Shown here in pieces: positions 6,000 to 47,760 of a stretch of 64,000 bases of DNA (position 1 is its first letter; each line of letters starts with the position of its first letter). The notes beneath the pieces were generated by a model that saw only the letters and a program-made list of their open reading frames with translations, ran no database searches and was not told where the DNA came from. The stretch spans positions 62,001 to 126,000 of the forward strand of contig JAJPKE010000035.1 of NCBI GenBank assembly GCA_021323855.1, written 5' to 3'. Source of the stretch: Chloroflexota bacterium (GTDB lineage Bacteria; Chloroflexota; Ktedonobacteria; Ktedonobacterales; JADMIN01). A program made the translations under genes and the position numbers.

Positions 6000-6692
6000 A
6001 TGCTGTTTCTCTTCGATATTGATGGAACGCTGCTGCGACGCATGCCGCCTGCGCATCGTCTGGCGCTCTGTGACGCCGCCGCAACGGTTTTTGGTGTGCA
6101 ACTGAGCACGCCTGACCTGGGGCAGACCGCTGGCATGACGGATAGCGCCATCACCTGGCGGATGTTGCGCGCGGCTGGTGTGCCAGACGCTACCATTGCT
6201 GAGGGGTTGCCAGCTTTCTTCACCGTCGCTGCCGATGCCTATGAGCGCCATGTCCCCAATGATCTGCGCCCGTATCACACGCCGCACGCCCAACCGGCGC
6301 TGGAGCGGCTGGCCGGACTCGGCGCGCACCTCGGCCTCGTCACCGGCAATATCCGCCGCGTCGCCTGGACCAAGCTGCGCGCCGCCGGATTGGCTGACTA
6401 CTTCATTGATGGTGGCTTCGGTGATGAGGCATCCGAACGCGAGAAGCTGCCACCGCTGGCGCTGGCCCGCATGGAGGATGCCTGCGCCCGCACCTTCGCG
6501 CCGGAGATGGTCTTTGTGGTGGGCGATACACCTGCGGATGTCGCCTGCGGCGCGGCCTGCGGTCTGCGCACGGTCGCCGTTGCCACCGGCCCTATCCATT
6601 CGCTCGCAGAACTCCGCGACGCCGGAGCTGACTATGCCTTCGAGGACCTGAGCGGCCTGACGACGCTGGAATTGGAAAACCCCCACCCCTAA
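6000..6692 (+). CDS. HAD-superfamily phosphatase (phosphoglycolate phosphatase-like)
   Basis: 230-residue haloacid-dehalogenase-type hydrolase. Motif I is DIDGT at residues 6-10 (nucleophile and acid/base Asp), motif II is GLVTGN, motif III is the Lys in AWTKLRAAGL, and motif IV is VVGDTPADVACG. The helical cap between motifs I and II suggests a subclass I enzyme acting on small phosphate esters. The open frame extends far upstream, but that is shadow sequence opposite another gene; the ATG at 6000 places motif I where the family expects it, though the ribosome binding site is weak. The last residues, NPHP, and the TAA stop are encoded by the left arm of a dispersed GC-rich repeat, and the facing Nudix gene ends the same way. 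The natural substrate is unknown. Confidence 0.88.
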   Translation: MLFLFDIDGTLLRRMPPAHRLALCDAAATVFGVQLSTPDLGQTAGMTDSAITWRMLRAAGVPDATIAEGLPAFFTVAADAYERHVPNDLRPYHTPHAQPALERLAGLGAHLGLVTGNIRRVAWTKLRAAGLADYFIDGGFGDEASEREKLPPLALARMEDACARTFAPEMVFVVGDTPADVACGAACGLRTVAVATGPIHSLAELRDAGADYAFEDLSGLTTLELENPHP

Positions 6693-6720
6693 CCCCTCCC
6701 CCGTGCGCGGGAGAGGGGAA
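6680..6720 (+). repeat. Dispersed GC-rich palindromic repeat, left arm
   Basis: A 41-base sequence that recurs as a perfect inverted copy at 6861-6901. It contains a hairpin-forming core around CCCCCGTGCGCGGGAGAGGGG and encodes the last codons and TAA stop of the HAD phosphatase gene. Related copies occur at 6819-6853, 13882-13930 and 47695-47760, so it belongs to a REP-like dispersed family. Confidence 0.85.
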
Positions 6721-6818: not shown

Positions 6819-6853
6819 CCCCTCTCCTCGCGGGAGAGGGGCCGGGGGTGAGG
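6819..6853 (+). repeat. Dispersed GC-rich palindromic repeat, middle copy
   Basis: A hairpin-like copy (CCCCTCTC stem, loop around CTCGC, GAGAGGGG stem) followed by ccgggggtgagg. Bases 6834-6853 are the exact reverse complement of 47695-47714. With the two arms at 6680-6720 and 6861-6901 it forms a three-copy cluster that may act as a bidirectional transcription stop between convergent genes. Confidence 0.75.
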
Positions 6854-6860
6854 ATTCTGG

Positions 6861-6901
6861 TTCCCCTCTCCCGCGCACGGGGGAGGGGTTAGGGGTGGGG
6901 G
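6861..6901 (-). repeat. Dispersed GC-rich palindromic repeat, right arm
   Basis: Perfect inverted copy of 6680-6720. Read on the minus strand it gives the final PHP residues and the TAA stop of the Nudix gene. The 33 bases 6856-6888 are identical in direct orientation to 13882-13914 inside ecfA2. Confidence 0.85.
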
Positions 6902-10729: not shown

Positions 10730-10955
10730 TGGTTTCTTCAGGCATGTTCAGGTACAGGTATATGTGGCGCGTCGCACAGGATAAGGGTGTCCATGAGTGG
10801 TAGACTGGGGACTGAGGTAAGATCATCCTGTAGACTGACGCGCAACCAGAGCGATAGACGTTTAACTCGCTAGTGTATGTAGAGATGATAGAGATTACGA
10901 CCCATGCCTTTCTCGCAACAGCGCTTGAAACGTAGTCTGAAGGGAGCAGCACGGC

Positions 10956-12008
10956 TTGTCTGAACAGCTATCGCGAGTGCAGGACAGACGGCGCAATGAC
11001 GACCCGACTACTCTCGTTCCAGAGCCAGATAGAGATGATAGAAACGACACGCAGCGCGCGCAGACTCACGCTGAGCCAGCACCGCGCAGGCGCTTTCTTC
11101 GCCTGCCGGGCGCCAAAGCCACTTCGGCAGATGCCCAGGATGAAGACGACCCTGGGATGTTGTTAGGCGCAGGCTGGCTAAACGCCGCCGGACTGGCGGA
11201 GGGTGGGCTGCTCGCGGATGTCGGCGTCGTTCTCGACCTGACCTCTATCTATCTGCCGCTGGTAGGCACTGTGCTGTCTTTTGCCGTGCCGACACCGTTC
11301 GCCATTCTGATGCTGCGGCGCGGGCCACGTGTGACGTTGCTGGCGGCCACCGTCTCCGCCTTTCTTATCACTATTCTGGCAGGGCCGCACTTCGGCTGGC
11401 GCATGGGCCTGGAAGCGATCATCGGGTTGTTGCTGGGCTGGGCAATGCGCAGAGGCATACGCCCCAGCTTTGCCTTCGTCGCTGGCATATTGCTCGTCGC
11501 CAGCACCACCTTTCTGGCCGCGCTCGGCGTAATCCTCGTCTCCGGTCTGCCGATATCAGATGTCGTAGGTGAGCTGCGTAACGGCCTCGGCTCCCTCGCA
11601 TGGCTGGTGGCGTCAGGCGCGGCGATCTTCGGCTTTCAGAGCCAATGGCTGGCGATTCGCCCGACGTTGGTGGCGCTGGGCCTGTTGGGGCTACATGTCT
11701 GGCCAGCGCTGCTCTTCCTCTCGCTCGTGGCTACGGCGACGCCGGTGGTGGCGTCCTACTATGTGCTGGCGAACGCAACGGCGCGCGTGTTGGGCTATGA
11801 GGTGCGTCCATTCCCCTCGCACGGCTTCATGCGCCTCGTACACTTCGTCTTTGTTGTCTTGACCGCGCCGGTGGCCCTGCCAGTGCGTGGCATACGCTGG
11901 CTTGCTCACGGCAGACGGCAACACAAGCGCAATGATAACAGTGTTGACGATGATATGCAGGATGAGATGCTATCCAGTGGGCGCTCGAATGGCCGGAGCA
12001 AGGAGTAG
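10956..12008 (+). CDS. Putative ECF transporter S component (DUF2232-like membrane protein)
   Basis: 350-residue integral membrane protein with a charged cytoplasmic N-terminus (about 85 residues, Arg/Asp rich) and roughly seven to eight helices, such as FAVPTPFAILML, VTLLAATVSAFLITILAG and MGLEAIIGLLLGWAMRRG. This pattern resembles DUF2232 / YybS-type proteins, which have the fold of energy-coupling-factor substrate-binding subunits. The context is decisive: it is the first gene of an operon with both ECF ATPases and EcfT, with gaps of 5 bases and overlaps after it. The start is a TTG at 10956 with AAGGGAG about nine bases upstream; no in-frame ATG fits better. The transported compound (vitamin, metal or other) cannot be read from the sequence. 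Confidence 0.75.
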   Translation: MSEQLSRVQDRRRNDDPTTLVPEPDRDDRNDTQRAQTHAEPAPRRRFLRLPGAKATSADAQDEDDPGMLLGAGWLNAAGLAEGGLLADVGVVLDLTSIYLPLVGTVLSFAVPTPFAILMLRRGPRVTLLAATVSAFLITILAGPHFGWRMGLEAIIGLLLGWAMRRGIRPSFAFVAGILLVASTTFLAALGVILVSGLPISDVVGELRNGLGSLAWLVASGAAIFGFQSQWLAIRPTLVALGLLGLHVWPALLFLSLVATATPVVASYYVLANATARVLGYEVRPFPSHGFMRLVHFVFVVLTAPVALPVRGIRWLAHGRRQHKRNDNSVDDDMQDEMLSSGRSNGRSKE

Positions 12009-12013
12009 TCTCT

Positions 12014-12988
12014 ATGGAACACCTCCCTGAGCAGCATACGCATCAAGCTGGCGCTAGCAACCATACCCGTAGCAGAGTTGCCGCCAGCCTGCCACTGATT
12101 GCGCTGGAAGATGTGACGTTTCGCTATCCTGCTGTGGCGTCGCGGCACGAGCGCACCGCCAGCCAGCGACCGGCACTGGAAAAGATCAATGTAACTTTCC
12201 AGCGCGGCGAGTATATTGCGCTGCTCGGTCACAACGGCAGCGGCAAATCTACCCTGGCGCGGCTGCTCAACGGCCTGTATTTGCCGACCGCCGGGCGTCT
12301 CCTCGTGGGGGGACTCGATACTCGTCATCCGGTTGCCCGCAGGCGCATTCGCGAACTGGTGGGGATGATCTTCTCCGACCCTGATAATCAGATCATCGCC
12401 ACGCTGGTGGAAGATGATGTGGCGTGGGGGCTGGCGGCGCGTGGCTGGCCGCTGGCGCGCATCCGCGAGCGGGTGACGGAGGCGCTCACCGCCGTGGGCA
12501 TGGAGCAGATGCGTGGGCGTCCGCCCTATGAACTCTCCGGTGGCCAGCGGCAACGGCTGGCTATCGCCGGAGTGCTGGCGCTCGCGCCCGATTGCATCGT
12601 CGCGGATGAACCGACGGCGCTGCTCGATCCGCAGGCGCGCGGTGAGATGGTCGCGCTGCTGCAACAGCTTTGCCAGCGCCAGGGTATCACCATCATTCAC
12701 ACCACCCATCTGCTCGAAGAGGCGGCGCTGGCGGATCGCATCCTGATTCTCGATGCCGGGCAGATCGTGCTTTCCGGCACGCCAACCGAGATATTCAGCG
12801 ACCTCGAACGGTTGCAGGCGTTGCGGCTGGTTGTTCCGCAGATGGCTCTGCTCGGCGAGCGGCTGCGTGCGCTTGGCATCCCTGTGCCGGTCAATGCGCT
12901 GACGCCAGAGTCGCTCATCGCTGCGTTGGAGCAGGCAAGAGGAGCAGCAAGCCAGCAAGAGCCGCCCGGCAGGGAGGCGCTACAATGA
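12014..12988 (+). CDS. ecfA1: ECF transporter ATPase A1
   Basis: First ABC ATPase of the energy-coupling factor module, 324 residues. Walker A is GHNGSGKST (72-80), the signature is LSGGQ (174-178), Walker B is CIVADEP with D198-E199, and the switch His is H232. The DPDNQIIATLVEDDVAWGL segment after the Q-loop is diagnostic of ECF/CbiO ATPases. The Q-loop glutamine itself is replaced by Ser121 (FSDPDNQ instead of FQNPDNQ), while the partner ATPase keeps it. A C-terminal extension of about 70 residues resembles the EcfA dimerisation region. AAGGAG precedes the ATG by ten bases. The stop overlaps the start of ecfA2 by four bases (ATGA), so translation is probably coupled. Confidence 0.93.
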   Translation: MEHLPEQHTHQAGASNHTRSRVAASLPLIALEDVTFRYPAVASRHERTASQRPALEKINVTFQRGEYIALLGHNGSGKSTLARLLNGLYLPTAGRLLVGGLDTRHPVARRRIRELVGMIFSDPDNQIIATLVEDDVAWGLAARGWPLARIRERVTEALTAVGMEQMRGRPPYELSGGQRQRLAIAGVLALAPDCIVADEPTALLDPQARGEMVALLQQLCQRQGITIIHTTHLLEEAALADRILILDAGQIVLSGTPTEIFSDLERLQALRLVVPQMALLGERLRALGIPVPVNALTPESLIAALEQARGAASQQEPPGREALQ

Positions 12989-13974
12989 GTGTTGGCATCA
13001 GCATCGAACACCTGACGCACATCTATAATCCGCGCACGCCGACCGCTAGAACGGCGCTCCATGACATTACGATGCAGATCGAAGCCGCCTCTTGCACGGC
13101 CATCGTCGGCGTCACCGGCTCCGGGAAAACGACCCTCGTTCAGCACTTCAACGGACTGCTCAAGCCAACCGAGGGCAGCGTGCGCGTGGGCGATATCGAA
13201 GTGACGAGCGACCGCACACGCAGCGCTGACCTGCGCAAGCTGCGGCGGCGGGTTGGCCTGCTCTTTCAATTCCCGGAAGCGCAACTCTTCGCGCCCACCA
13301 TCTATGATGATGTGGCCTTTGGCCCGCGCCAGCTTGGCCTGGCGGAAGCCGTGATCCGTATGCGGGTGATTCGTGCGCTGGATGCAGTGGCGCTCGATAC
13401 CAGCAGCGAGTTTCTTCAGCGGTCGCCCTTCGCGCTGAGCGGCGGGCAGCGGCGGCGCGTGGCGCTGGCTGGTGTGCTGGCGATGCGTCCGCAGGTGTTG
13501 GTGCTCGATGAGCCGAGCGCGGGACTGGACGCCGAGGCGCGTAACGAACTCTATGCGCGCCTTGCTGAGCTACGTGCCAACGATGGGCTGACGCTGGTGT
13601 TCATCTCGCATGACATGGCGGAGGTGGCGGCGCTGGCAGATCGGGTCTTCGTCATGGCAGGTGGTGAGCTTCGGCTCTCCGGCGCGCCGGAAGACCTCTT
13701 CCGCCAGCCCGATGATTTGATCGCCTGTGGGCTGGTGCCGCCACCACTGGCGCAGGTGACACGGCTGGCGCAGGAGCATGGCTGGCCCGCGCAGCCGCAG
13801 CATTTCACGCCGGAGCAGGTGGCAACGGCGCTGGCCGCCGGCATATCGAGTGCCTCTCACTCGTCGCTCTCGCAGGCAGCGTCTGGTTCCCCTCTCCCGC
13901 GCACGGGGGAGGGGCCGGGGGTGGGGGCTTCGAATCACAATCATCACATGCAGGGAGGCGCGGATGCTGAATAA
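12985..13974 (+). CDS. ecfA2: ECF transporter ATPase A2
   Basis: Second ABC ATPase of the ECF module, 329 residues. Walker A is GVTGSGKTT (42-50), the Q-loop is FQFPEAQLF with Q95 intact, the signature is LSGGQ (151-155), Walker B is VLVLDEP with D175-E176, and the H-loop is ISHDM. The FPEAQLFAPTIYDDVAFGP segment is typical of EcfA2. The ATG at 12985 overlaps the ecfA1 stop; the long upstream open frame is a shadow of ecfA1. The last 30 residues (SPLPRTGEGPGVG and after) are encoded by a dispersed palindromic repeat inserted in the 3' end of the gene. The gene overlaps ecfT by 11 bases. Confidence 0.93.
   Translation: MSVGISIEHLTHIYNPRTPTARTALHDITMQIEAASCTAIVGVTGSGKTTLVQHFNGLLKPTEGSVRVGDIEVTSDRTRSADLRKLRRRVGLLFQFPEAQLFAPTIYDDVAFGPRQLGLAEAVIRMRVIRALDAVALDTSSEFLQRSPFALSGGQRRRVALAGVLAMRPQVLVLDEPSAGLDAEARNELYARLAELRANDGLTLVFISHDMAEVAALADRVFVMAGGELRLSGAPEDLFRQPDDLIACGLVPPPLAQVTRLAQEHGWPAQPQHFTPEQVATALAAGISSASHSSLSQAASGSPLPRTGEGPGVGASNHNHHMQGGADAE
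13882..13930 (+). repeat. Dispersed GC-rich palindromic repeat inside ecfA2
   Basis: Bases 13882-13914 are identical to 6856-6888, followed by ccgggggtgggggc, which matches the other copies. The element lies in frame near the 3' end of ecfA2 and is translated as SPLPRTGEGPGVGA, a peptide known as a spurious translation of such repeats. Confidence 0.85.
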
Positions 13975-14830
13975 TTTGCCGATTGGCGTCTACATTCCCG
14001 GCCAGACACCGATTCACCGCCTGCGCGCACGGACCAAACTGCTTGTGCTCATCTGGCTGGCGTTGTTGTGCTTCGTCGCCAACCACAAACGGTTCCACTT
14101 TGGCGCGTATGTCGCGTCATTCTCATTGCTGGCGCTGGCGCTGCTGATTGCACAGGTGGATTTCGGCTATATCTGGCGGCGCATGCGGCTGCTGGTGATT
14201 CTGCTGCTGATTGGCGTGCCGTTTTCGCTGGCGCTCACGCCTGGGCCGACCTGGCATACCTTCGGTCCCATCAATCTGCATTTCGATCACCTGCTACACT
14301 TTCAGAATGTGACAATTCCGCTGGGGCCGATTGTTGTGACCTATGACGGCATCTGGTTTATGCTCTCCTTCGGCGCCATCTTCCTGCTGCTCTATCTCGG
14401 CTCGATGCTGTTGACGCTGACGACGACGCCGGTGGCGCTGGCGGAGGGCGTGATGCTATTGCTGCGCCCGCTGCGGCGCTTTGGCCTGCCGGTCGAGGAG
14501 TTCGGCTTGATGACGCTGGTGTCGCTGCGCTTCATTCCAGTGCTGATCCAGGAGGCGGAGCAACTGATGAAGGCGCAAATCTCGCGCGGCGCTGATTTCA
14601 CCACGGGATCGCTTACCGCGCGGCTGCGTCGCCTGGGCAGCCTGTTGGTGCCGCTGGTGCAGGGAGCGCTGCGCCGGGCGGCCAACCTCTCTTCGGCACT
14701 GGATGCGCGCGGTTACGGCGTCACCAACGAGGCCACCTTGCTGCATGAGGGACGGCTCGGTCTGCTGGATTGGTTGGTGTTACTGGCTGTCCCCATCATC
14801 ACAGCGTTGGCCTATTGGAAGCTATTCTGA
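13964..14830 (+). CDS. ecfT: ECF transporter transmembrane subunit EcfT
   Basis: 288-residue membrane coupling subunit of the energy-coupling factor transporter. The N-terminus YIPGQTPIHRLRARTKLL is the typical EcfT/CbiQ opening (…HRLDPRTKL). Membrane helices follow (LLVLIWLALLCFVAN, LLVILLLIGVPFSLAL, IFLLLYLGSMLLTLT). The cytoplasmic coupling region has MKAQISRGADF and SSALDARGYG; the two Arg-Gly elements contact the two ATPases. The ATG at 13964 overlaps the end of ecfA2 by 11 bases. With the S gene at 10956 this completes a dedicated (group I-like) ECF transporter. The gene ends at 14830, eight bases from the stop of the convergent glycosyltransferase gene. Confidence 0.93.
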   Translation: MLNNLPIGVYIPGQTPIHRLRARTKLLVLIWLALLCFVANHKRFHFGAYVASFSLLALALLIAQVDFGYIWRRMRLLVILLLIGVPFSLALTPGPTWHTFGPINLHFDHLLHFQNVTIPLGPIVVTYDGIWFMLSFGAIFLLLYLGSMLLTLTTTPVALAEGVMLLLRPLRRFGLPVEEFGLMTLVSLRFIPVLIQEAEQLMKAQISRGADFTTGSLTARLRRLGSLLVPLVQGALRRAANLSSALDARGYGVTNEATLLHEGRLGLLDWLVLLAVPIITALAYWKLF

Positions 14831-17704: not shown

Positions 17705-18625
17705 TTATGCCTGCTGTTCATCCAGTTCGTTGGCAATGCTGTTGATTTCATCGAGAGTCTGCTGCCGTGCCCGTTCGATGCGGCTCATCCGCTTCTGAAA
17801 TTGCGTCATGGCATAACCCAACACTTCGTCGTGTGGCAGATCAAACGGCATCTTGCCATCCTGGTATGTGACGTAGGTATCACTTACCACGCCCATCGTA
17901 AAGGGAAGTAACTCGTTCATGCGCTCTTGCAGCGCCGTCCAAACGCTCTCGCCATGTTCAGCCATCAGCCGTGAGATGAAGTATACGGCGAAGGCGATAT
18001 GGCGCGACTCATCCCGCTTGACCAGACCAATAAACTGTTGCATTCCCGGCAGAATATGGTTCTGGGTGAGCGTGCGCTCGAAGCCGTAATACCCGGTCTC
18101 TGCCAGAACGCCTTCGACAATCAGGTTATAGGTGGCGGAGGCACGTACCTGTGCAACTGGTGAGTTGTCGGTGAGCAAGCGATTCATTGCAGCGGGCAAC
18201 TCCTCACCGAAAATATGGCGGTAGTTAGGGCCATGATAGCGCGCGAGATCCGTATGATCCTGCGCCACCTCATCAAAGAAACGACGAAAACCCTCGACAT
18301 GTTTGGCCTCTTCCCAGAGGAATGAGGTCAGATACATCTCCTCTTCGAGACGGCCTTCTCGCGCAATTACGAGGATCAGCGGCAGCAGGTCCAGCGTGAC
18401 CGATTCCTCACCAGCGAGAAAGAGCGCACTCGAACGAGCGAGCGCCTCGCGTTGATCGTCGTTCAACTGCTGCCAATCCGCGATATCCTGGGTGAAATCT
18501 ATGTCGCCGGGATTCCAGATGCCCAGGCGTTTTGCCTTATTCCACAGGCGCATGGGCGGCAGATCATAGCGAAGACCTTGCGGGCTGGTAGTAATGAACA
18601 CGCGGTCATTCTGGGGGCTGGTCAT
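17705..18625 (-). CDS. R2-like ligand-binding oxidase (R2lox)
   Basis: 306-residue ferritin-like protein of the R2-like ligand-binding oxidase group, related to ribonucleotide reductase small subunits but not part of a reductase. All metal ligands expected for the Mn/Fe site are visible: E73 (AGEESV), E106 and H109 (EEAKH), E171 (IVEGVLAET), E206 and H209 (DESRH). V76 and Y166 (TYNLIVEG) match the residues that form the tyrosine-valine ether cross-link in characterised members. No reductase large subunit is near. Known members bind a long-chain fatty-acid-like ligand and perform two-electron oxidation; the natural reaction is not established. The ATG at 18625 follows an AAGGAG site. The family call is firm, the physiological role open. 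Confidence 0.9.
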   Translation of the reverse strand: MTSPQNDRVFITTSPQGLRYDLPPMRLWNKAKRLGIWNPGDIDFTQDIADWQQLNDDQREALARSSALFLAGEESVTLDLLPLILVIAREGRLEEEMYLTSFLWEEAKHVEGFRRFFDEVAQDHTDLARYHGPNYRHIFGEELPAAMNRLLTDNSPVAQVRASATYNLIVEGVLAETGYYGFERTLTQNHILPGMQQFIGLVKRDESRHIAFAVYFISRLMAEHGESVWTALQERMNELLPFTMGVVSDTYVTYQDGKMPFDLPHDEVLGYAMTQFQKRMSRIERARQQTLDEINSIANELDEQQA

Positions 18626-47593: not shown

Positions 47594-47694
47594 GAGAAAG
47601 TACCTCGTATCGTATGCTGAAATGGTAGAGGGGTGTTCTACCCCTGACAGCGTATTGTACCGCGTTTTCCGCAGCGAACGCGATATACTGAAAT

Positions 47695-47760
47695 CCTCAC
47701 CCCCGGCCCCTCTCCTCGCAAGGAGAGGGGTGGCCGCAGGCCGGGGTGGGGAGAGGGGTA
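47695..47760 (+). repeat. Dispersed GC-rich palindromic repeat upstream of ispD
   Basis: A double hairpin: cccctctcctcgcaaggagagggg, then ggccgcaggcc, ending ggggtggggagaggggta. Bases 47695-47714 are the exact reverse complement of 6834-6853. The last GGGGAGAGGGG lies five bases before the ispD start codon and looks like its ribosome binding site. Confidence 0.8.

Follow-up and report, generated by a model that had tools for sequence, protein, structure and literature searches.

Four genes at positions 10956–14830 of a 64,000-nucleotide stretch of Chloroflexota DNA (assembly GCA_021323855.1, contig JAJPKE010000035.1, positions 62,001 to 126,000; hereafter the window) appear to encode a complete importer of the energy-coupling factor (ECF) type, in which a protein of the Pfam family DUF2232 is the membrane-embedded S component. 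We put the probability of this reading at roughly 0.85. What this analysis established is the presence of the four genes and their motifs, a predicted S fold and the conservation of the operon. The predicted fold alone is no proof; together with the operon linkage it makes a convincing case. ECF transporters take their names from their S components, and the Pfam title DUF2232 carries no function.

Layout and conservation of the operon

The four genes run in the same direction on the + strand, in the order S, ATPase A1, ATPase A2 and T component, with boundaries that agree with a first-pass annotation made from the sequence alone. A gap of 5 bases separates S from A1, A1 and A2 overlap by 4 bases (ATGA), and A2 and T by 11. 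Because of this spacing, co-transcription of all four genes is very likely, as judged from the sequence. Pfam assigns S to DUF2232 (E 1.1e-10, 41.6 bits against a cut-off of 27.8), both ATPases to ABC_tran and T to CbiQ (PF02361, E 1.8e-28). Among the NCBIfam models, A2 passes the ECF_ATPase_2 cut-off (331.7 bits, cut-off 330), and A1 falls slightly below that for ECF_ATPase_1 (308.2 bits, cut-off 315). Both ATPase sequences contain the Q-helix motif X-P-D/E-X-Q-hydrophobic, which a passage of PMC6828968 defines as specific to ECF ATPases, and the CbiQ-family T carries the two X-R-X coupling motifs that mark an ECF T component. The annotation's claim of a complete ECF transporter, with S, A1, A2 and T in one tight operon, is therefore borne out by coordinates, spacing, family matches and motifs. 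PADLOC matches of A1 and A2 look like generic ABC/AAA similarity and were set aside.

The operon is conserved among relatives. PF09991, the DUF2232 family, was found in 24 of 301 Chloroflexota genomes, the window's included, with 26 matches. For the 25 matches outside the window, the surrounding DNA was examined, and the S gene was identifiable in 23. S is followed by A1-A2-T in order in 22 of these 23, and the arrangement is therefore not due to chance. Two of the 22 deviate slightly, T being cut by the contig end in L039 and a HAD-type gene standing between A2 and T in L048. Locus L029 holds only S and A1, and its genome's sole CbiQ-family match lies on a different contig. No module was seen around the matches in L051 and L052, which score below the curated cut-off and contain in-frame stops. 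The genome that holds L052 (G272) also carries two DUF2232 operons (L032 and L048), the L052 match being a third, apparently decayed copy. The T proteins of L033, L038, L048, L050 and similar loci of family f3 are about 344 residues long, the third and fourth helices being set further apart than in the window T by a longer stretch; a passage of PMC6828968 describes an insertion between these helices in cyanobacterial and plant T as well.

Outside the four genes, no neighbor is conserved across the 23 Chloroflexota loci. One candidate, family C5, precedes S in 3 of the 23, and the two of its three members that were scanned match the ABC1 kinase family. No Rfam family reached its gathering score anywhere in the 64-kb window, and a consensus scan of the leader ahead of S returned no sigma-70-like site. 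The annotation had proposed comparing neighbors in relatives and had noted that no biosynthetic gene or riboswitch names the substrate; the first gave the four-gene order and no further conserved family, and the second still holds.

Its description of the transporter as dedicated is not established. S is encoded with the module, as in a Group I (dedicated) transporter, yet no second EcfT was found in the host genome, where BioY is encoded elsewhere. In this assembly of 5.59 Mb and 45 contigs, 89% complete, DUF2232, the CbiQ family and BioY are each represented by a single protein, and ECF_trnsprt has no match. Since it holds a single detected T, the A1-A2-T motor may also serve BioY, to judge by gene content. 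A stronger version, in which BioY is the main client of a shared motor and DUF2232 a second client or accessory subunit instead of the main substrate binder, is unlikely. Besides the host, four genomes of the window's family (G092, G100, G188 and G300) combine BioY with one CbiQ-family match each, as it would predict. However, BioY is present in only 12 of the 24 DUF2232-positive Chloroflexota genomes, and the 12 that lack it, several of them incomplete, keep the operon nonetheless; it is also DUF2232, not BioY, that adjoins the motor genes.

Predicted fold of the DUF2232 protein

The model of the window S, built on an alignment of 38 sequences that includes it, has a mean predicted local distance difference test score (pLDDT) of 82, high in the core and low in the tails. 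The PDB chains ranked highest by Foldseek, 997 of which were aligned, were then compared with the model. The top seven rows are all ECF S components, with Z from 11.3 down to 7.0, led by TmRibU (Z 11.3, root-mean-square deviation 3.5, 147 residues aligned) and including FolT (11.1) and ThiT (8.1). The eighth row is CbiM, at Z 6.7, and the best unrelated row likewise scores 6.7. A model of an orthologous S gave Z 11.5 for RibU, with unrelated rows reaching 8.2. By structure prediction, the window S thus has the six-helix fold of S components. Structure prediction against known S components had been suggested in the first-pass annotation and returned that fold, for a gene that stands within the ATPase operon. 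Residues ~200–247 seem to lie outside the six-helix core; this placement and the membrane orientation were read from the helix list and charges, not computed.

Sequence comparison places S in DUF2232 and in no other family, as the annotation had said in finding no vitamin-specific family that it matched. Even at E 0.1, DUF2232 is the sole Pfam family matched by the window S, with no match to BioY, ECF_trnsprt or CbiM. Every one of the 38 sequences in the joint alignment matches DUF2232, and no other family is matched by more than one of them. When the PDB was searched by sequence, with the S alignment as query, two weak matches came up, to b-iTHR-110 (E 0.0023) and a phosphoglycerate mutase (E 1.6). 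Four residues, E82, L86, R121 and G143, are invariant across the 38 sequences. In the 20 Chloroflexota members two further positions never vary, D88 and a tryptophan close to where the last core helix begins; neither is kept in the cyanobacterial rows. Ahead of the first core helix lies an extension of about 76 residues, for which the annotation had proposed an 85-residue charged cytoplasmic head. The charge is real (27 charged residues among the first 75). The head is not supported: the segment is predicted to be poorly ordered (block-mean pLDDT 48–70 over residues 1–70), is short or missing in many homologues, and is better described as a variable, unconserved tail.

Several observations weigh against assigning DUF2232 to the S components. 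By the structural-alignment tool's own warning, Z values of up to 13 can arise by chance among helical bundles. A search with Foldseek alone yielded nothing at E 0.001 or better, although S components filled its top five rows. According to passages of PMC11109136, the S fold is common to MreD and 5TMR kinases, and an AxxxA motif is expected in helix 1 of S; the window S has G83xxxA87 (GxxxA) there instead, and a small-xxx-small pair is found in helix 1 of most, not all, of the 38 aligned rows. That DUF2232 is a structural or signaling protein with an S-like fold, placed beside an ECF module by chance, would suit the fold shared with MreD and the kinases and the relaxed AxxxA, but is highly improbable given that A1, A2 and T follow S in order at 22 of 23 loci and that most rows have the small-xxx-small pair.

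If DUF2232 is the S component, it would bind a scarce extracellular nutrient, as in the solved ECF transporters. By the same analogy, S would then dock on T and topple in the membrane, and the nutrient would be released into the cell while the A1/A2 pair hydrolyzes ATP; the toppling, the transport and its direction are all drawn from those systems.

Table 1. Operon features by position in the window
Feature	Position	Strand	Basis and remarks
S component, DUF2232 membrane protein, 350 aa	10956..12008	+	TTG start; core ~residues 77–280; PF09991, structure model, structural comparison
N-terminal extension of S, ~residues 1–76, predicted poorly ordered	10956..11183	+	Low pLDDT; short or missing in many homologues
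ATPase A1, EcfA1-like	12014..12988	+	Walker A GHNGSGKS, signature LSGGQRQR, Q-helix DPDNQI
ATPase A2, EcfA2-like	12985..13974	+	Walker A GVTGSGKT, signature LSGGQRRR, Q-helix FPEAQL; ECF_ATPase_2 cut-off passed
T component, EcfT/CbiQ family	13964..14830	+	PF02361; X-R-X motifs SRG (residue 207) and ARG (residue 248)
Leader between GH3 gene and S	10730..10955	+	No Rfam match; no sigma-70-like site in a consensus scan

Two further features of the window lie in or near the operon. A G+C-rich palindromic repeat at 13889–13923 falls within the part of the A2 gene that codes for the C-terminal tail and is translated in frame (SPLPRTGEGPGVG). Similar copies occur at 6684–6718 and 6863–6897 and a shorter pattern also at 6834–6854 and 47694–47714; the repeat is absent from the seven orthologous tails compared. 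Downstream, an R2-like ligand-binding oxidase gene occupies 17705–18625 on the − strand (NF006202, above cut-off).

DUF2232 and the plant-like EcfT of cyanobacteria

The transporter type was already known, and what is new here is a cyanobacterial connection of DUF2232 that the first-pass annotation had missed. A query fragment close to the loci it retrieved yielded 405 confirmed stretches, the best 80 of which, rich in Nostocales, were analyzed. All 80 loci are cyanobacterial, and 80 reading frames in them were matched both by a profile built from Chloroflexota S only (best E 5e-23) and by the window S itself in BLAST.

Co-occurrence was examined in 194 genomes of the cyanobacterial phylum. 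DUF2232 is present in 87 (86 above cut-off) and a close relative of the plant-like EcfT in 89. Both are found in 86 genomes, T only in three (G355, G409 and G458), a sub-cut-off S only in G404, and neither in 104; DUF2232 is thus present in 86 of the 89 sampled genomes that hold a plant-like EcfT. Both proteins are retained in cyanobacterial genomes down to ~1.6 Mb. According to a passage of PMC6828968, Gloeobacter lacks this T.

The T proteins were related to one another in a tree of 69 sequences, for which Chloroflexota T outside DUF2232 operons were taken as highest-scoring matches and not as a random draw. The 22 operon T form one group (support 98/86), and its sister is a group of 16 plant-like cyanobacterial T (91/74), two of which are the same protein. 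One more row, the seventeenth (L139), had been mislabeled by a threshold and holds another kind of T. In a second tree, which leaves out four long rows and one duplicate, selected once the first result was known, the joint group of operon T and plant-like T had support of 97/92, and the operon T as one group only 82/23. The plant-like EcfT of cyanobacteria, which has chloroplast relatives in the ABCI12/ABCI10 module, therefore appears to be the closest relation of the window T among the sequences sampled, none of them from plants.

Two results weaken the cyanobacterial link. PsaA/PsaB is present in 88 genomes with nearly the same distribution, so the co-occurrence mostly separates photosynthetic cyanobacteria from the rest and is a weak test of partnership. 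An informative exception is the endosymbiont EtSB (G304), which has no PsaA/PsaB match, yet retains both S and T. In addition, a grouping of the operon T with six other Chloroflexota T is not rejected at the 5% level (p value of the approximately unbiased test 0.073). The two genes are also arranged differently: S and T are not neighbors in the four T loci and best 80 S loci examined in cyanobacteria, whereas they belong to one operon in the window. According to a passage of PMC8696166, synpcc7942_2341, which is a putative T gene in S. elongatus, is linked with engA.

Because of the co-occurrence in 86 of 89 genomes, and because the window T appears closest to the plant-like EcfT among the T sampled, DUF2232 is a candidate S component for the plant-like EcfT transporter. 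On these sequence comparisons, the cyanobacterial homologues are probably its S partners. For the chloroplast ABCI10/ABCI12 module, whose S subunit and substrate are stated to be unknown in a passage of PMC6828968, DUF2232 is only a lead.

A gene for a CRP-family regulator was also seen upstream of cyanobacterial DUF2232. The family is present in 70 of the 80 loci (L053–L132), directly upstream in 67, and near DUF2232 in just 2 of 20 more varied cyanobacterial genomes.

Cargo and relation to known importers

The neighborhood of cyanobacterial S offers a clue to its cargo. S is followed by a CobT-type gene in 15 of the 20 varied genomes (the misses being L228, L230, L232, L234 and L236) and in 60 of the best 80 loci; of the 20 loci without it in the latter set, 10 run out of sequence in less than 2 kb. 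A scan of two of the CobT-type proteins placed both above the cut-off of the CobT model TIGR00303. The endosymbiont EtSB is again instructive. According to a passage of PMC12903740, it is unable to make pseudocobalamin yet has MetH and QueG, and its survival is called a mystery. At its locus (L098:8598-10502), similarity to CobT is broken into pieces across different frames, with no open frame of 100 residues that matches, whereas CobT is intact in the RgSB counterpart (L080:8674-9774). The EtSB S gene is full length, with a ratio of nonsynonymous to synonymous substitution (dN/dS) of 0.23 against RgSB, compared with 0.44 and 0.14 for two neighboring genes, all from a simple counting script. 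No FecCD permease was found in EtSB, where no search was made for other cobamide importers. An intact S beside a broken CobT fits import of a finished cobamide, and from sequence an unrelated role would also be compatible. The lower-ligand base that is the substrate of CobT is disfavored as cyanobacterial cargo, given that EtSB keeps S though CobT is broken. A cobamide or corrinoid is our best, tentative guess for the cyanobacterial cargo.

A metal ion, as proposed for chloroplast ABCI10 and ABCI12, has a rather small chance of being the cargo. A passage of PMC6828968 reports disturbed metal homeostasis in chloroplast mutants, and the invariant E82, with D88 in the 20 Chloroflexota sequences, could be read in the same sense; but no histidine, cysteine or methionine is conserved in S save the start methionine, no CbiM family match was obtained, and the chloroplast metal effect may be indirect.

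Extending a cobamide or corrinoid cargo to every lineage, the window's host included, would build on the CobT neighbors and on the EtSB pattern of lost synthesis, retained enzymes, intact S and missing FecCD. This is improbable. In the host genome, a gene set of Peripla_BP, FecCD and ABC type is preceded by a cobalamin riboswitch of 70.2 bits (L253:5722-9844, contig C17), and no CobT match was obtained there; both disfavor cobalamin as the host's cargo, and for the window's lineage it is unlikely. Nor does CobT track DUF2232 in Chloroflexota, being present in 8 of 24 genomes with DUF2232 and 5 of 20 without. No riboswitch was found near S in 20 relatives' loci or 20 cyanobacterial loci, the four Rfam matches being two rRNA pieces and two tRNAs. 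Many cyanobacteria, moreover, make their own pseudocobalamin and would have no obvious use for uptake, according to a passage of PMC4850488. The residues differ too, D88 and the tryptophan being invariant on the Chloroflexota side only, and the Chloroflexota and cyanobacterial lineages may carry different cargo. A passage of PMC12903740 says that land plants make no use of cobamides, and a cobamide cargo could therefore not hold for chloroplasts. A cobalamin riboswitch ahead of a similar-looking gene set was also seen in a relative (L255:6092-10053).

The proposed transporter is most like the ECF systems with EcfA1, EcfA2 and EcfT that import folate or riboflavin (PDB 5kc4, 9kym and 4hzu), sharing two different Q-helix ATPases, a T with two X-R-X motifs and, by prediction, the S-component fold. 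It differs from them in its S, which is DUF2232 with no Pfam match to known S families and which, as read from the helix list, carries terminal tails and, after the fifth core helix and before the last one, additional helices. With the cobalt and nickel transporters CbiMNQO and NikMNQO it shares a T of the CbiQ Pfam family and a similarity of S fold to CbiM that is tied with unrelated rows (Z 6.7); unlike them, the window operon has two different ATPases, no CbiM match and no room for a further gene. A cobalamin importer of the BtuCDF type would be alike in importing a scarce cofactor, if the cobamide guess is right, but its membrane parts are not homologous and the host has a separate, riboswitch-linked set of that kind.

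In Bacillus, the DUF2232 protein goes by the name YybS. No mention of DUF2232 as a term was found in the literature searched; most subscription papers lay outside that search, and an earlier mention is possible. Nor is it named in the passages of PMC6828968, PMC11109136, PMC8696166 and PMC11487621 that were consulted.

Taken as one proposal, that DUF2232 is the missing S of the cyanobacterial plant-like EcfT transporter, is by descent a lead to the chloroplast S, and imports cobamides in cyanobacteria is doubtful. If true, cobamide import through DUF2232 would explain why EtSB keeps cobamide-dependent enzymes after losing the pathway. If DUF2232 is the S partner of the plant-like EcfT, a single cyanobacterial knock-out could identify the transporter's cargo, and there would be a starting point for the chloroplast module. 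The window operon is useful in having S, A1, A2 and T side by side, unlike in the cyanobacterial loci examined.

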